DNA from: Acidobacteriota bacterium | Lineage (GTDB): Bacteria > Acidobacteriota > Terriglobia > Acidiferrales > UBA7541 | Assembly: GCA_003224085.1 (NCBI GenBank) | Contig: QHYK01000077.1 | Span: 1-47,352 of the forward strand | Direction: 5' to 3' | DNA: 47,352 bases | Part shown: positions 12,221 to 36,016 of the stretch, in pieces | Position numbering within the stretch: the first letter of the stretch is position 1 | Layout of the letters: each line of letters starts with the position of its first letter | Translations under genes and position numbers: made by a program | Notes under the pieces: model-generated | The model's input: only the letters and a program-made list of their open reading frames with translations | Databases searched by the model: none | Told to the model about the DNA's origin: nothing

Positions 12221-12547
12221 TCAAACCTTCTAGCACGCCGCCGCCATCCTCAAGAGAGCACGCCAGCGACCTCCTTGTAGCGCACCCGCACGGCTTGTTT
12301 GTATATCCCTCGGCCGTTCCCTTCTGTACTCCGAGGGCCTGTGCCAACTCCTAGGAAAGTAATGTTTGTTTTTCGATCTGTCGGGGATAACGAGCCCCGG
12401 TTGGGGTGACGAACCCATCGGGACGCGGGTTTTTCCCACTTACTTGAGCGGAAGGGAGTTGCCAAACTGAGCGCCCTTAGCCCATGCGCAAATTGTGGGG
12501 TGGAAGCTCGCTCCGCAGCGCAAAGTCAAGCTCAAGGAGAAATCAAG
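12221..12547 (+). other. long leader of the first hexapeptide-repeat gene
   Basis: There is no gene in this 327-base stretch. AACCC at about 12409-12413 can pair with GGGTT at about 12428-12432 just before a T-run, a weak terminator-like hairpin. The ribosome site AAGGAG lies about eight bases before the ATG at 12548. A leader this long could carry post-transcriptional control, but I do not recognise a riboswitch class. Confidence 0.35.
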
Positions 12548-13606
12548 ATGAGTACAAAGATAGGGAAACTGGTCGCAGCGGTCCTGATGACCGGGCTGTT
12601 GGTCCTGTGCCAATTCCCCGCTCCTGCATTTGCTTTTGATACGGCAAGTGCAGTTGTTTCGGGGGCAGTTACGATTGCCGGGGCCACGACCGTCTCAGGC
12701 AGCACCATAGTTGCGGGGTCGACCAGCGTCGCCGGAGCTACCGTGGTGTCTGCCGGTAGCGTGCTGGCTGCTGGCAGCGTTGTCGCGGCAGGCAGCATGG
12801 TCAACGGTGCGTCGGTAGCTTCGTCCACCGTTCTCGCAGAAGCCACCTCGGTAAACAGCACGTCGGTGCTGGCCGCCAGCAGTACAGTCGCGGCCGGTTC
12901 CAGCTTCGCCACCAGCACGATGCTGGCTGCAGGAACAACTCTCGCTGCGGGCAGCTCGATTGAGGCCGGCAGTGTGTTGGCCGCTGGCAGCGTTATCACG
13001 GCGGGCAGCGTGGTCAACGGCAGCAGCTTCAGCTCCGCAACCACTCTGGCTTCGGCAACAACCGTCTCTGGAACTTCCACTTTGGCTGCTGGCAGCACGA
13101 TCGCGGCTGGCAGTTCGCTCGCGAGCGGCACAGCTATCGCCGCCGGTTCGAGTGTGGTGAGTGCCACCCTGATTGCACAGGGCAGCGTCCTGGGCGCCGG
13201 CAGCTTCGCGGCGGCCAGCAGCATCGTTAACGCCGTCGCGGTCTCTGGTGGAGTGTCTTTTGCCGCCAACACCGCCATCGTAGCGTCCACCAGCTTGGCT
13301 GGCGGCAGCATTATCGCCGCAAACTCTACTCTGGCGGAAGGCAGCGCGTTGGTCACCAACACGATGATCGCGGGAACCACGTTTGCTGGCGGCTCCGTTG
13401 CCGTTGCTAACACAGCAGTCGTCGCGGGTGGCAGCACGCTGGCAGCGGGCACCGTTGTGGCAGCGGGCAGCGTGGTCAACGGAACGAGCGTCTCCTCGGC
13501 GACCGTTCTGACCTCGTCAACCGTTGTGGCCGGCTCGACCGTCCTCGCGTCGGGCAGCACGATCGCGGCCAGCTCCGTTTTGGCGACCAGCACCATGGTG
13601 ATCTAG
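12548..13606 (+). CDS. secreted hexapeptide-repeat (predicted beta-solenoid) protein, copy 1
   Basis: A protein of 352 residues starting at the ATG behind AAGGAG; the frame is open upstream to 12500 but without a ribosome site. A signal peptide (about 1-29, ending PAPAFA) precedes about 320 residues made almost wholly of Ala, Ser, Gly, Thr and Val. From residue 73 the sequence runs in six-residue steps such as LAAGST, IAAGSS, LASGTA. These fit the left-handed beta-helix pattern [LIV]-[GAED]-x-x-[STAV]-x. Super-repeats of 71, 71, 83 and 55 residues start at 73, 144, 215 and 298, each opening with L-x-A-G-[ST], and most carry Asn-Gly about 14 residues in. It lacks any catalytic His or acyltransferase insertion. 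Function unknown; a structural, surface or ice/solute-interacting role is only a guess. The neighbouring paralogue has the same architecture. Confidence 0.85.
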   Translation: MSTKIGKLVAAVLMTGLLVLCQFPAPAFAFDTASAVVSGAVTIAGATTVSGSTIVAGSTSVAGATVVSAGSVLAAGSVVAAGSMVNGASVASSTVLAEATSVNSTSVLAASSTVAAGSSFATSTMLAAGTTLAAGSSIEAGSVLAAGSVITAGSVVNGSSFSSATTLASATTVSGTSTLAAGSTIAAGSSLASGTAIAAGSSVVSATLIAQGSVLGAGSFAAASSIVNAVAVSGGVSFAANTAIVASTSLAGGSIIAANSTLAEGSALVTNTMIAGTTFAGGSVAVANTAVVAGGSTLAAGTVVAAGSVVNGTSVSSATVLTSSTVVAGSTVLASGSTIAASSVLATSTMVI

Positions 13607-13696: not shown

Positions 13697-13847
13697 ATTC
13701 TCTTACGTAAGCCTCTGTGTCAATGAGGTGACCTAAGTTCGTGTGACAGCAGTACTAAATCAGGCTCAAGCGGGCGGGGCGCGGAAACTGGCTCCTAAAA
13801 CCTCAGGACCACAAGCAAGAATCAAAAAAAGGGAAACGGAGGTTAGA

Positions 13848-14912
13848 ATGCGCAAACGAATTCATGTGGGGAAAAAATCAATCACGATTTTGGCGGCCAC
13901 GCTCTTAGCTGGCCTCGTTCCCACCGGCTTGTTACCGGCTCCCACCTACGCACAATGTTTCGGTGGCACAGTTGTAGTGGCCGGAAACACCACTTTGGTC
14001 GGCACCACCTTTTTGAATGGCACGACCTTGATCGAACACTCGATGACGATTGCCCCCGAGAGCGAGCTAGCCGCGGGCAGCTTTATTGCCGCTGGCAGCA
14101 TCTTGAATGGCACTTCTGTGGCGAAAAAAGGAGTGAATCTTTCCAATGCCGTGACGATCACCGACAATACCGTAGTAACCGCAGGCTCGAAGTTTGCGCC
14201 TGGATCGGTTTTTGCGGGCAGCACTGTTCTCGGAGCGGGGACAACGCTAGCGGCTGGAAGCAATATTGAGCCCGGCAGCGTCTTGGCCGCCGGAACGGTA
14301 GCAGCTGCAGGCAGCAGCGTGAACGGAATCACTCTTGAGGCGAAAACAACGTTTACTTCGCACACGCCCATCCGCATCGTTTCATCTCTCGCAGCAGGCA
14401 GCTCGATCGCTGCGGGCAGTGCATTGACCCTCGACACTAGCTCTGCCAATAACATTCAGATAGGTGCCGTGACCACCATCGCCGTGGGCAGCGTGCTAGG
14501 CGCTGGCAGCTTTTTGGCACCAGGAAGCGTAATCAACGGCGTGGCCATGACGCTGGGCACGGTCTTGGACCAGGATGCTAGCGTTGGCACGGCGAGCAGC
14601 CTTGCAGCGGGCAGCTTCCTAACAACGGGCAGTTCCATCGCGGGCGGGAGCTCGCTGGTGGGGGGCCTCACAATCATGGGAGCTACAGCCATAACGGGAA
14701 CAGTTTCCGTGGCCAGCCCCGCGCTGGTGGCCAGTGGAAGCCAATTGGCGGCGGGAACGCAAATAATCACTGGGAGTATGGTGAACGGCGCCTCCGTCCC
14801 AACGGCCACTACTTTGCCAACGACTACCGCCGTCAATGAAGCCACTCTTCTGACCGCAGGCAGCGTGCTTGGTGCACAGAGCGAGCTTGCGGCAGGCGGC
14901 ATGATTTTTTAG
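13848..14912 (+). CDS. secreted hexapeptide-repeat (predicted beta-solenoid) protein, copy 2
   Basis: A protein of 354 residues starting at the ATG preceded by GGAGGT (13838-13843). The signal peptide is about 1-35, ending PAPTYA, with a single Cys at 37 that is not in a good lipobox. The body follows the same six-residue period as copy 1 (LAAGSF, IAAGSI, LGAGTT). Super-repeats start at residues 74, 146, 217 and 300 with lengths 72, 71, 83 and 55, matching copy 1 unit for unit. Identity is highest in the unit openings (for example VLGAGSF in both third units) and low elsewhere, so the duplication is old but the fold constraint is strong. It carries more charged and polar substitutions than copy 1. 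It ends at a bidirectional terminator shared with the facing response regulator. Function unknown. Confidence 0.85.
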   Translation: MRKRIHVGKKSITILAATLLAGLVPTGLLPAPTYAQCFGGTVVVAGNTTLVGTTFLNGTTLIEHSMTIAPESELAAGSFIAAGSILNGTSVAKKGVNLSNAVTITDNTVVTAGSKFAPGSVFAGSTVLGAGTTLAAGSNIEPGSVLAAGTVAAAGSSVNGITLEAKTTFTSHTPIRIVSSLAAGSSIAAGSALTLDTSSANNIQIGAVTTIAVGSVLGAGSFLAPGSVINGVAMTLGTVLDQDASVGTASSLAAGSFLTTGSSIAGGSSLVGGLTIMGATAITGTVSVASPALVASGSQLAAGTQIITGSMVNGASVPTATTLPTTTAVNEATLLTAGSVLGAQSELAAGGMIF

Positions 14913-26544: not shown

Positions 26545-26695
26545 CACTGAATTTTCAATTGGCAGCCGGGGAAGCGGGGAAGGCCGTGCGAATCGGCCGC
26601 GGTCCCGCCACTGTGATCGGCTCGAGCAGCCGTAAGCCAGGCCACCCTCCCTTGGCGCAGAGGCCGGCGCCCTTCGCGAGAAAGGGCAAAGCCGG
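26545..26695 (+). ncRNA. cobalamin riboswitch upstream of btuFCD
   Basis: The aptamer core is recognisable: GGGGAAGGCCGTGCGAAT, then CGGTCCCGCCACTGTGA (the CCCGCCACTGT box), then AAGCCAGGCCACC (a variant of the AGCCAGGAGACC box). It lies between the hydratase gene and btuF. An intrinsic terminator follows directly, so binding of B12 is expected to favour termination. Exact ends are approximate. Confidence 0.85.
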
Positions 26696-29789: not shown

Positions 29790-30045
29790 TTCACCGCAGA
29801 CTTCGTGCTCGGGAAGACGGTTCGTTGGCCGATCCAGTCGAGGACAACAACAATCCGTCGCCGCCGCGCGACTGTAAGGCGGAAGCCGCTCACATCCGTG
29901 CGACCCGGTAAGGGCCGCAACGGGAGGATGTCGGGCTCTTGAAGTCGGCCCGGCAAGGGTCGCTTTGAAAAAGCCTCGCAAGCCACTGCTCCTTTGCGGG
30001 AAGGCTGCGAGCCATGAACACCGCCAAGCCAGGAGACCGGCGAAG
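29790..30045 (+). ncRNA. second cobalamin riboswitch, upstream of the BtuB-like receptor
   Basis: The box GCCGCGCGACTGTAAGGCGG is at about 29862-29881; GCCACTG then GCGGGAAGGC precede the nearly perfect AAGCCAGGAGACCGGC at about 30025-30040. About 140 bases lie between the two main boxes, longer than in compact members, implying an extra peripheral stem. No T-run terminator follows, so control is probably at translation initiation. Ends are approximate. Confidence 0.85.
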
Positions 30046-30087
30046 TCTGCAGCCTGTGCGTTCTTTTCCGCGCAGGACAACCTTCAA

Positions 30088-33960: not shown

Positions 33961-35442
33961 ATGCCGAAATCCGCTCCAGAGGCCATGCCCATCGCTCCGG
34001 AAATCCTCGCGAAATACGAGCCGGTCATCGGCCTCGAAGTCCACGTCCAGCTCCTTACCAAGACGAAAATTTTCTGCGGCTGCTCCACGCGCTTCGGCGA
34101 TGCGCCAAACACCAACGTCTGCCCCGTGTGTCTCGGTCTGCCCGGCACGCTTCCCGTTCTCAACAAGCGCGCCGTCGAAATGGCCATGCGCGCCTCGCTC
34201 GCGCTGAACTGCACGGTCCACGAGCGTTCGCGCTTCGCCCGCAAGAACTATTTCTACCCCGACCTCCCCAAAGGCTACCAAATCTCGCAATACGAATTGC
34301 CTCTCGCCACGGGCGGCTGGCTTGACATCGAAGTCGCCGGTGCCGCAAAGCGCATCGGCATCACCCGCCTTCACCTCGAAGAAGACGCCGCGAAAAACCT
34401 TCATGAAGGTTTTTCGCAATCCGCCACGAAGGCTTACATCGATTACAACCGCTGTGGCACTCCCCTGGTCGAAATCGTCTCCGAACCCGATATTCGCTCG
34501 TCCGAAGAAGCCCACGCCTACCTCACCTCGCTCCGCCAAATCATGCTGTACACCGGCGTCAGCGACGTCAACATGGAGGAAGGCTCGCTGCGCTGCGACG
34601 CCAATGTCAGCGTGCGTCCGCGCGGCTTGAAAGAATTCGGCACCAAAGTCGAAGTCAAAAATCTCAACTCTTTTCGTTTCCTCCAAAAAGCCCTCGAATA
34701 CGAAATCGAGCGTCACATCGGCGTCCTCGAATCCGGCGGCCGTCTCATTCAGGAGACGCGCCTCTGGAACCAAGCCGAAGGCCACACTGTTGGCATGCGC
34801 TCGAAGGAAAAAGCACACGACTACCGCTATTTCCCCGAGCCGGATCTTCTCCCCGTCCACGTCAGCGACGCCTGGCGCGAAGAAGTTCGCCGTTCGCTTC
34901 CCGAACTTCCCGAAGCCAAGCGCGCCCGCTTTGCGTCCTACGGAATCACTCCCTATGATGTCGATCTCCTCACCGCCACTCGAACGCTCAGTGACTATTT
35001 CGAGGAGACCGTGGCAGCCGGAGCGCCGGGCAAAGCCGCTGCCAATTGGATACTCACCGAGCTGATTCGGTGGTTGAACGAAAAAAAGGTCGCGTTTGCC
35101 GATAACCCCATCACTCCGGGTGCGCTGGCCGAGCTACTGAAAATGATCGAGTCCGGTCAGATCACCGCCGCGGTTGGTAAAAAAGTCTTTGCCACCATGT
35201 TCGAATCCGGCCGCAGGGCCGCCGACATCGTTGCCGCCGAAGGCCTCGGCGCCCAGGTCAGCGACTCCGCCATCGAAGCCGCCGCGCGCGACGTCATCGC
35301 CAAGAACCCCGATAACGTGGCCAAATTCAAATCCGGTAACGAAGGCGTCTTCAAATTTTTCATCGGCCAGGTCATGCGCGCCACCCGCGGCCAGGCCGAT
35401 CCTCAAGCCGTCAACGACATCCTCCGCGGGCTCCTTTCCTGA
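33961..35442 (+). CDS. gatB: aspartyl/glutamyl-tRNA amidotransferase subunit B
   Basis: A protein of 493 residues; an internal ATG at 33985 (MPIAPEILAKYEP) is an equally good start. Family blocks are in order: VIGLEVHVQL, the Cys-rich zinc site KIFCGCSTRFGD...CPVCLGLPGTLP, KNYFYPDLPKGYQISQY, LEEDAAK, IDYNRCGTPLVEIVSEPD, MEEGSLRCDANVSVR, EVKNLNSFRF, QETRLWN and DYRYFPEPDLLP. The C-terminal GatB/YqeY helical domain follows and ends QADPQAVNDILRGLL. With GatA and GatC it converts misacylated Glu-tRNA(Gln) or Asp-tRNA(Asn) to the amidated forms. gatA and gatC are not next to it. Confidence 0.96.
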   Translation: MPKSAPEAMPIAPEILAKYEPVIGLEVHVQLLTKTKIFCGCSTRFGDAPNTNVCPVCLGLPGTLPVLNKRAVEMAMRASLALNCTVHERSRFARKNYFYPDLPKGYQISQYELPLATGGWLDIEVAGAAKRIGITRLHLEEDAAKNLHEGFSQSATKAYIDYNRCGTPLVEIVSEPDIRSSEEAHAYLTSLRQIMLYTGVSDVNMEEGSLRCDANVSVRPRGLKEFGTKVEVKNLNSFRFLQKALEYEIERHIGVLESGGRLIQETRLWNQAEGHTVGMRSKEKAHDYRYFPEPDLLPVHVSDAWREEVRRSLPELPEAKRARFASYGITPYDVDLLTATRTLSDYFEETVAAGAPGKAAANWILTELIRWLNEKKVAFADNPITPGALAELLKMIESGQITAAVGKKVFATMFESGRRAADIVAAEGLGAQVSDSAIEAAARDVIAKNPDNVAKFKSGNEGVFKFFIGQVMRATRGQADPQAVNDILRGLLS

Positions 35443-35554
35443 GCAACTGAAACTTTTGCCGTTTGTCCCCGTTGTACTGGAGGGAGGAATCGCGCGTATA
35501 CTTGACGTCAATCGCCTCAGGACGAAAACCATCAGCGCGCACCGAGGAGTCCCC

Positions 35555-36016
35555 ATGCTCAAGCCCGGCGACAAAGCCCCTGCCTTCCGCCACCGGTCCG
35601 ACGAAGACAAACTCGTCTCGCTCAAAGATTTCAAGGGCCGGCGCGTCCTGCTTTTTTTCTTTCCCAAAGCCAATACCACCGGTTGAATCATCGAAGCGTC
35701 CGAGTTTCGCGACGCAAAAAAGAAGTTCGACCAACTCAAAACTGCCATCCTGGGCATGAGCGCTGACTCGGTCAAAGCGCAGGCCCTGTTCAAGGCCAAA
35801 TACAAATTCAATTTTCCGTTGCTCAGCGATCCCGACCACAAAACCATCGAAGCCTACGGCGCCTGGCAGCAAAAACAGTTCATGGGACGCAAATTTATGG
35901 GCATCGTGCGCAGCTCTTTTCTCATCGGCAAAACCGGCAAAATCGAAGCCGTCTGGCCCGCCGTCAAAGCCAAAGGCCACGCCGCCGAAGTCCTCAAGCA
36001 CCTCGCCAACACATAG
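35555..36016 (+). CDS. probable selenocysteine-containing Bcp/PrxQ-like peroxiredoxin (in-frame UGA)
   Basis: If TGA at 35684-35686 is read as selenocysteine, the product has 153 residues, the normal Bcp length. It starts MLKPGDKAPAF after GAGGAG (35544-35549). The AhpC/TSA fold shows VSLKDFKGRRVLLFFFPKAN, then TTG-U-IIEASEFRDAKKKF, where other family members have P-G-C-T-x-E-A. The UGA is thus exactly at the peroxidatic position (residue 44). The frame stays open for 109 more codons with typical ILGMSADSVKAQALF, FPLLSDPD and SSFLIGKTGKI. The protein has no cysteine at all, so the residue at 44 would be its only catalytic chalcogen. A SECIS-like hairpin follows the UGA. The alternative is a pseudogene with a nonsense mutation at Cys (TGC or TGT to TGA). 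Confidence 0.75.
35696..35715 (+). promoter_or_regulatory. candidate bacterial SECIS element
   Basis: GCGTC (35696-35700) pairs with GACGC (35711-35715), and CGA (35701-35703) with TCG (35707-35709), leaving one bulged C (35710) and the apical loop GTT (35704-35706). The loop begins with G and lies 17 bases after the UGA, within the spacing of roughly 16-37 bases described for bacterial SECIS. Hand-folded only. Confidence 0.6.

Follow-up and report, generated by a model that had tools for sequence, protein, structure and literature searches.

A predicted cysteine-free selenocysteine peroxiredoxin of the Bcp/PrxQ type in Acidobacteriota

Selenocysteine (Sec)-containing peroxiredoxins with a TxxU motif form an established family, as set out in excerpts of PMC1794560 and PMC13188914. 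The catalogue of bacterial selenoprotein families, as excerpted from PMC9312934, includes the entry ‘Prx, COG1225 (Bcp), TxxU’, and the Sec peroxiredoxin of Eubacterium acidaminophilum is cited in PMC9312934 and PMC8533274. For Acidobacteria, four selenoproteins in three families were counted in 2006 (PMC1794560, in part). A limited search by title and beginning of abstract returned no open paper on a cysteine-free Sec-Bcp. The locus described here lies in a stretch of 47,352 nucleotides from a soil bacterium of the Acidobacteriota (contig QHYK01000077.1), referred to below as the window. The genome to which it belongs is an assembly of 6.8 Mb in 159 contigs, 97% complete.

Reading frame and family of the window gene

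Judging from sequence comparison, the window gene almost certainly encodes a 153-residue Bcp/PrxQ-type peroxiredoxin with Sec as the peroxidatic residue. The frame opens with ATG at 35555, closes with a TAG ending at 36016 and holds a single in-frame TGA, codon 44, which in the alignment falls on the TxxC cysteine of homologues. The first-pass annotation had described a Bcp/PrxQ-like frame interrupted only at the family cysteine and otherwise intact over 153 codons with good start and stop; both statements hold. With Cys placed at position 44, the protein matches PF00578 (E 1.9e-32) and scores 156.8 bits against the NCBIfam model PRK09437 (thioredoxin-dependent thiol peroxidase; cut-off 140), and its top solved-structure sequence matches include many named bacterioferritin comigratory protein (Bcp). 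The PxxxTxxC/U motif is present as P37, T41 and U44, together with R119; a conserved Arg is counted among the active-site features of Bcp/PrxQ proteins. Translation with TGA as Sec confirms the earlier statement that the whole protein is devoid of cysteine. The upstream neighbour is presumed from its sequence to be gatB. Feature coordinates are collected in Table 1.

Table 1. Features of the peroxiredoxin locus, in window coordinates
Feature	Position	Strand	Basis and remarks
gatB (presumed), upstream neighbour	33961–35442	+	Open reading frame list; own stop is TGA
GAGGAG, ribosome-binding-like	35544–35549	+	By eye; 5 nt upstream of ATG
Predicted Sec Bcp/PrxQ-type peroxiredoxin gene	35555–36016	+	153 codons and TAG; TGA read as Sec
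TGA codon 44, peroxidatic position, read as Sec	35684–35686	+	Column 44 comparison, 82 family homologues
SECIS hairpin	35696–35715	+	Loop GUU at 35704–35706; synonymous identity, pair counts
Codon 49, TCC (Ser)	35699–35701	+	Inside hairpin; Cys here in 25/30 phylum Cys genes examined

A plain open reading frame listing breaks the gene into one frame that stops at 35686 and another, of 86 residues, at 35756–36016, just as the first-pass annotation had expected of automatic annotation. The second frame starts with ATG, as it should if UGA were a true stop and ATG 35756 the start of a separate 86-residue protein. Similarity and frame, however, run continuously across the UGA and through the region before ATG 35756, and the silent-site constraint described below sits immediately past the UGA, which leaves termination and restart with hardly any probability.

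Elsewhere in the window, cobalamin riboswitches were detected at 26552–26667 (+) and 29878–30059 (+), with 48.5 and 33.1 bits; they precede open reading frames resembling by eye a B12/iron-type ABC importer and a TonB-dependent receptor. Two adjoining open reading frames, 12500–13606 (+) and 13743–14912 (+), consist mostly of AAGS-like repeats (e.g. STVAAGSSFATSTMLAAGT) and have signal-like starts.

Codon 44, selection and the selenocysteine machinery

Seventy-nine of the 89 genomes of the window's family contain a match at E 1e-30, and 82 of the 83 family places were examined, the omitted one being a partial match (G076, contig 283). Cys and UGA interchange at column 44: the codon is TGA in 59 homologues and TGC or TGT in 23, with no other codon among the 82. 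Thr41 and Arg119 are present in all 82, and Pro37 in 75. The frame is conserved as well; over the aligned stretch, the family TGA genes contain zero additional stops and zero gaps relative to the window protein. The gene is under purifying selection, with dN/dS against nine same-genus relatives of 0.10–0.41 upstream of the UGA and 0.05–0.37 downstream of the hairpin; the low downstream values indicate that it is not a pseudogene, and the decay that the first-pass annotation had considered as a refutation was not seen.

A nonsense mutation, with TGC or TGT changed to TGA in a dying Cys-Bcp gene, would fit one relative, L105 (298–786, +, in genome G074), which has TGA at codon 44, lacks the hairpin and is nested among Cys genes in a genome with selA. 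L105 may have arisen by nonsense mutation or misassembly, or may use a different kind of SECIS, and it was omitted from the Sec-row statistics (synonymous identity, pair counts, codon 43 and codon-49 dependence). For the window gene such a mutation is extremely improbable: the TGA is common to 59 of the 82 family genes, which have no other stops or gaps, dN/dS is low downstream, and the block past the TGA is frozen at silent sites. Conservation already contradicts it.

The gene presumed to be gatB adjoins the Bcp gene in all 30 loci tested, 29 of them from the same genus (including the window's own) and one from another genus. Three of these loci carry Cys genes, and the locus is therefore common to the Cys and Sec forms.

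The window genome contains the Sec machinery, for which the first-pass annotation had suggested a search: tRNA-Sec (selC; 66.4 bits, anticodon tca by ARAGORN), selA (561 bits), selB (353 bits) and selD (345 bits) all score over their cut-offs. selD lies in pieces at two contig ends, L030 from 1447 (+) and L028:1402–2409 (−), which probably belong to one gene. The piece with the start of selD has an in-frame TGA (AAGUAAKL), so selD may be a selenoprotein itself. Across the family, selA was detected in 78 of 89 genomes. By hand tally, it is present in 54 of the 56 genomes bearing a TGA gene with the hairpin, including G012, where the match is partial, below cut-off and at a contig end; the two without it are G013 (85% complete) and G068 (79% complete). 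Among the 22 genomes with Cys copies only, four lack selA, all from one genus (hand tally).

Reading of UGA as an ordinary amino acid, through a changed code or SECIS-independent readthrough, would be compatible with a frame left open under a changed code. Nevertheless, the adjoining presumed gatB frame stops at TGA, homologues have Cys at column 44, the genome has a full Sec gene set and the hairpin is conserved in TGA genes only; this reading is accordingly given next to no weight beside Sec.

Other redoxins of the window genome with an in-frame TGA are conserved in relatives. A second PrxQ-like gene, L020:1417–1995 (−) on contig C151, carries a TGA within its frame (FTGGU-TKQ) and has a hydrophobic N-terminus; one TGA, counted irrespective of its position, is found in 61 of the 67 family matches listed for it. 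A longer redoxin, L021:1231–2460 (+) on contig C58, has TGA in SADWUPFCKG, with one TGA in 28 of the 34 family places listed. The L021-type gene is stop-free in G082–G084, which are without selA, and has TGA in G086 (71% complete, selA not found).

The SECIS hairpin

The published limits for a bacterial SECIS, as given in the excerpt of PMC13188914, are a loop of 3–9 nt with G within its first two bases, located 16–37 nt past the UGA, and an energy of −7.5 or lower. In the window, the loop GUU starts 17 nt past the UGA, the UGA with the following 33 nt folds at −10.3, and the stem, counted by hand, has eight pairs and one bulged base; loop, spacing and energy thus fall within the published limits, in agreement with the hairpin noted at first pass. 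An Rfam search at a permissive threshold gave no matches across the window gene. The folding z-score is −1.32 (60 nt), and 1200 of 20000 synonymous recodings fold as well as the window sequence or better; not being significant, folding energy by itself was not counted as evidence. The signal that exceeds chance lies in conservation, namely the TGA/Cys alternation in column 44 and the freezing of silent sites only in TGA genes.

This RNA-level constraint past the UGA is visible at codons 47–53, where synonymous identity is 0.89 in 58 family Sec rows, against 0.45 expected from codon usage, and 0.53 against 0.49 expected in 23 family Cys rows. Codons 48, 49, 50 and 53 have zero synonymous variation in family Sec genes and are variable in Cys homologues. 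Base pairing was counted in 67 Sec genes (58 from the family and nine from the wider phylum, none picked by pattern); in a wider count of 146 Sec rows, 79 were drawn by a pattern containing the hairpin, which makes the 67-gene count the fair one. In 52 of the 67, the 20 bases that begin with codon 48 have the sequence GCGUCCGAGUUUCGYGACGC. All seven chosen pairs are found in 58/67 Sec genes versus 1/53 Cys genes, the GUU loop in 67/67 versus 19/53, and a fold energy of −7.5 or lower in 66/67 versus 22/53.

Other lineages carry compensatory pair changes. Pair 8–12 is A-U in 59 Sec genes, G-C in seven and A-C in one, and position 15, the silent site of Arg52, tracks codon 49: it is C or U with UCC-GAG, C with UGC, and G both with ACC at codon 49 and in two UCC-GGG genes. 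Unlike those two genes, some pattern-chosen rows have U at position 15 together with UCC-GGG. Codon 43 (35681–35683), just 5′ of the UGA, is GGT in 53/58 family Sec genes versus 3/23 Cys genes; this bias is a silent-site constraint 5′ of the hairpin.

In the proposed mechanism, a ribosome would reach UGA44, SelB with Sec-tRNA would bind the hairpin starting 9 nt downstream, and Sec would be inserted. The selenolate in the PxxxTxxU motif would then reduce a hydroperoxide, yielding a selenenic acid to be reduced by an outside thiol, which may be thioredoxin, glutaredoxin or a small thiol. An outside thiol would be needed as reductant because the window protein has no cysteine of its own.

Resolving cysteine, distribution and known systems

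In E. coli-type Bcp, the resolving Cys lies five residues past the peroxidatic residue. This Cys is absent from the window protein, which has Ser49, and is also missing in 18 of the 23 family Cys homologues, where codon 49 encodes Ile (9), Cys (5), Asn (4), Val (4) or Gly (1). In the 58 hairpin-bearing family Sec genes it encodes Ser (54) or Thr (4), residues found there in none of 53 Cys genes; five of the nine other phylum Sec genes examined keep Cys49. Over the aligned stretch, 28 of 30 Sec proteins from the window's genus are without any Cys, and among the 28 Sec proteins from the family's other genera, 26 have Cys at residue 68. This pattern suggests that the enzyme of the window's genus is of the 1-Sec kind, presumably resolved by an outside thiol, and the first-pass designation ‘1-Sec type’ fits a protein without cysteine.

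A tree was built from 163 rows (family rows, phylum rows, and those pattern rows that are below 56% identity and not identical to others) with columns 44 and 49 masked; its pattern-chosen rows lean toward Sec. The family genes form a single clade (SH-aLRT 100), 53 of the 160 inner branches of this tree being open. The family tree without L105 requires at least six U/C changes. A single Cys clade in the family tree was rejected (p-AU 5e-14). Cys groups are nested within a mostly Sec clade, which favours, short of proof, the direction from Sec to Cys. At codon 49, the 109 Sec rows require at least eight switches between Cys and Ser/Thr on the tree. In an independent-pairs test for dependence of Ser/Thr49 on Sec, the median p was 0.5 with too few supported pairs, so such dependence stays a possibility. 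A proposal with about even chances is that Sec permits repeated loss of the resolving Cys to Ser or Thr in acidobacterial Bcp on account of the position of codon 49 within the SECIS stem; this would give a cysteine-free 1-Sec peroxidase, and at the one gatB-linked locus lineages would switch in situ between the Sec/Ser form and Cys forms, two Cys groups also having Cys49.

Beyond the family, a match was found in at least 244 of 396 genomes drawn from the phylum. Among the matches listed, 39 phylum loci were examined: the 29 best after the window gene, eight further ones flagged for TGA and two Cys loci picked by hand. Column 44 is Cys in 30 and TGA in nine, which is not a frequency, as the loci were chosen partly for a flagged TGA; one of the 39, L146, has Cys at column 44 and TGA elsewhere. 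A 31-base pattern of UGA and hairpin matched 106 stretches of named genomes (genome_contigs), 105 of which align as Bcp with TGA at column 44; in the remaining one, L195, the alignment starts only at residue 47, close to where the stretch ends. Sixty of the pattern stretches have TCC at codon 49 and 45 have TGC; since the pattern picks its own hairpin and allows two codons, these rows show spread, not conservation. Their titles are mostly Acidobacteria, Acidobacteriota, Acidobacteriales, Acidobacteriaceae, Terriglobia or Candidatus Acidiferrales; the others are Deltaproteobacteria, Syntrophobacter, Gemmatimonadetes or Gemmatimonas, Neomarinimicrobiota, Dehalococcoidia and Bacillota. Two stretches titled Bacillota, L168 (JAIMBE010000185.1) and L179 (JAIMBE010000144.1), seem to be mislabelled. 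A scan of viral_contigs with the signature of UGA and hairpin gave no matches.

The gene product appears to be a conserved enzyme of peroxide defence in a widespread Acidobacteriota group known largely from metagenomes. The dense array of both Sec and Cys forms of this one locus makes it well suited to studying, in nature, the conditions under which selenium is retained, the price that the protein pays for a SECIS, and whether a resolving Cys becomes dispensable once Sec is present. The point worth pursuing is the cysteine-free protein with its Ser/Thr-encoding SECIS.

Compared with known systems, the window protein resembles the catalogued Prx COG1225 (Bcp) TxxU, so far as the excerpted entry describes it, in being Bcp-type, with predicted Sec at the peroxidatic position of TxxU and a hairpin past the UGA; it is itself cysteine-free, with Ser at the resolving position, in which it may differ from the catalogued example. 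With Cys Bcp/PrxQ proteins (PRK09437) it shares a score over the cut-off, the Thr of TxxC and Arg119, but it would have Sec in place of the peroxidatic Cys, and it has Ser49 where most of the phylum Cys genes examined have Cys. PrxU is likewise a thioredoxin-fold peroxiredoxin, and the E. acidaminophilum enzyme, as cited in the excerpts, contains Sec; against the PrxU model (NF040737), however, the window protein scores 38.4 bits, below the cut-off of 270. Sec-Bcp is already known as a kind of enzyme; less expected is the Ser or Thr at the resolving position in all 58 hairpin-bearing Sec genes of the family.
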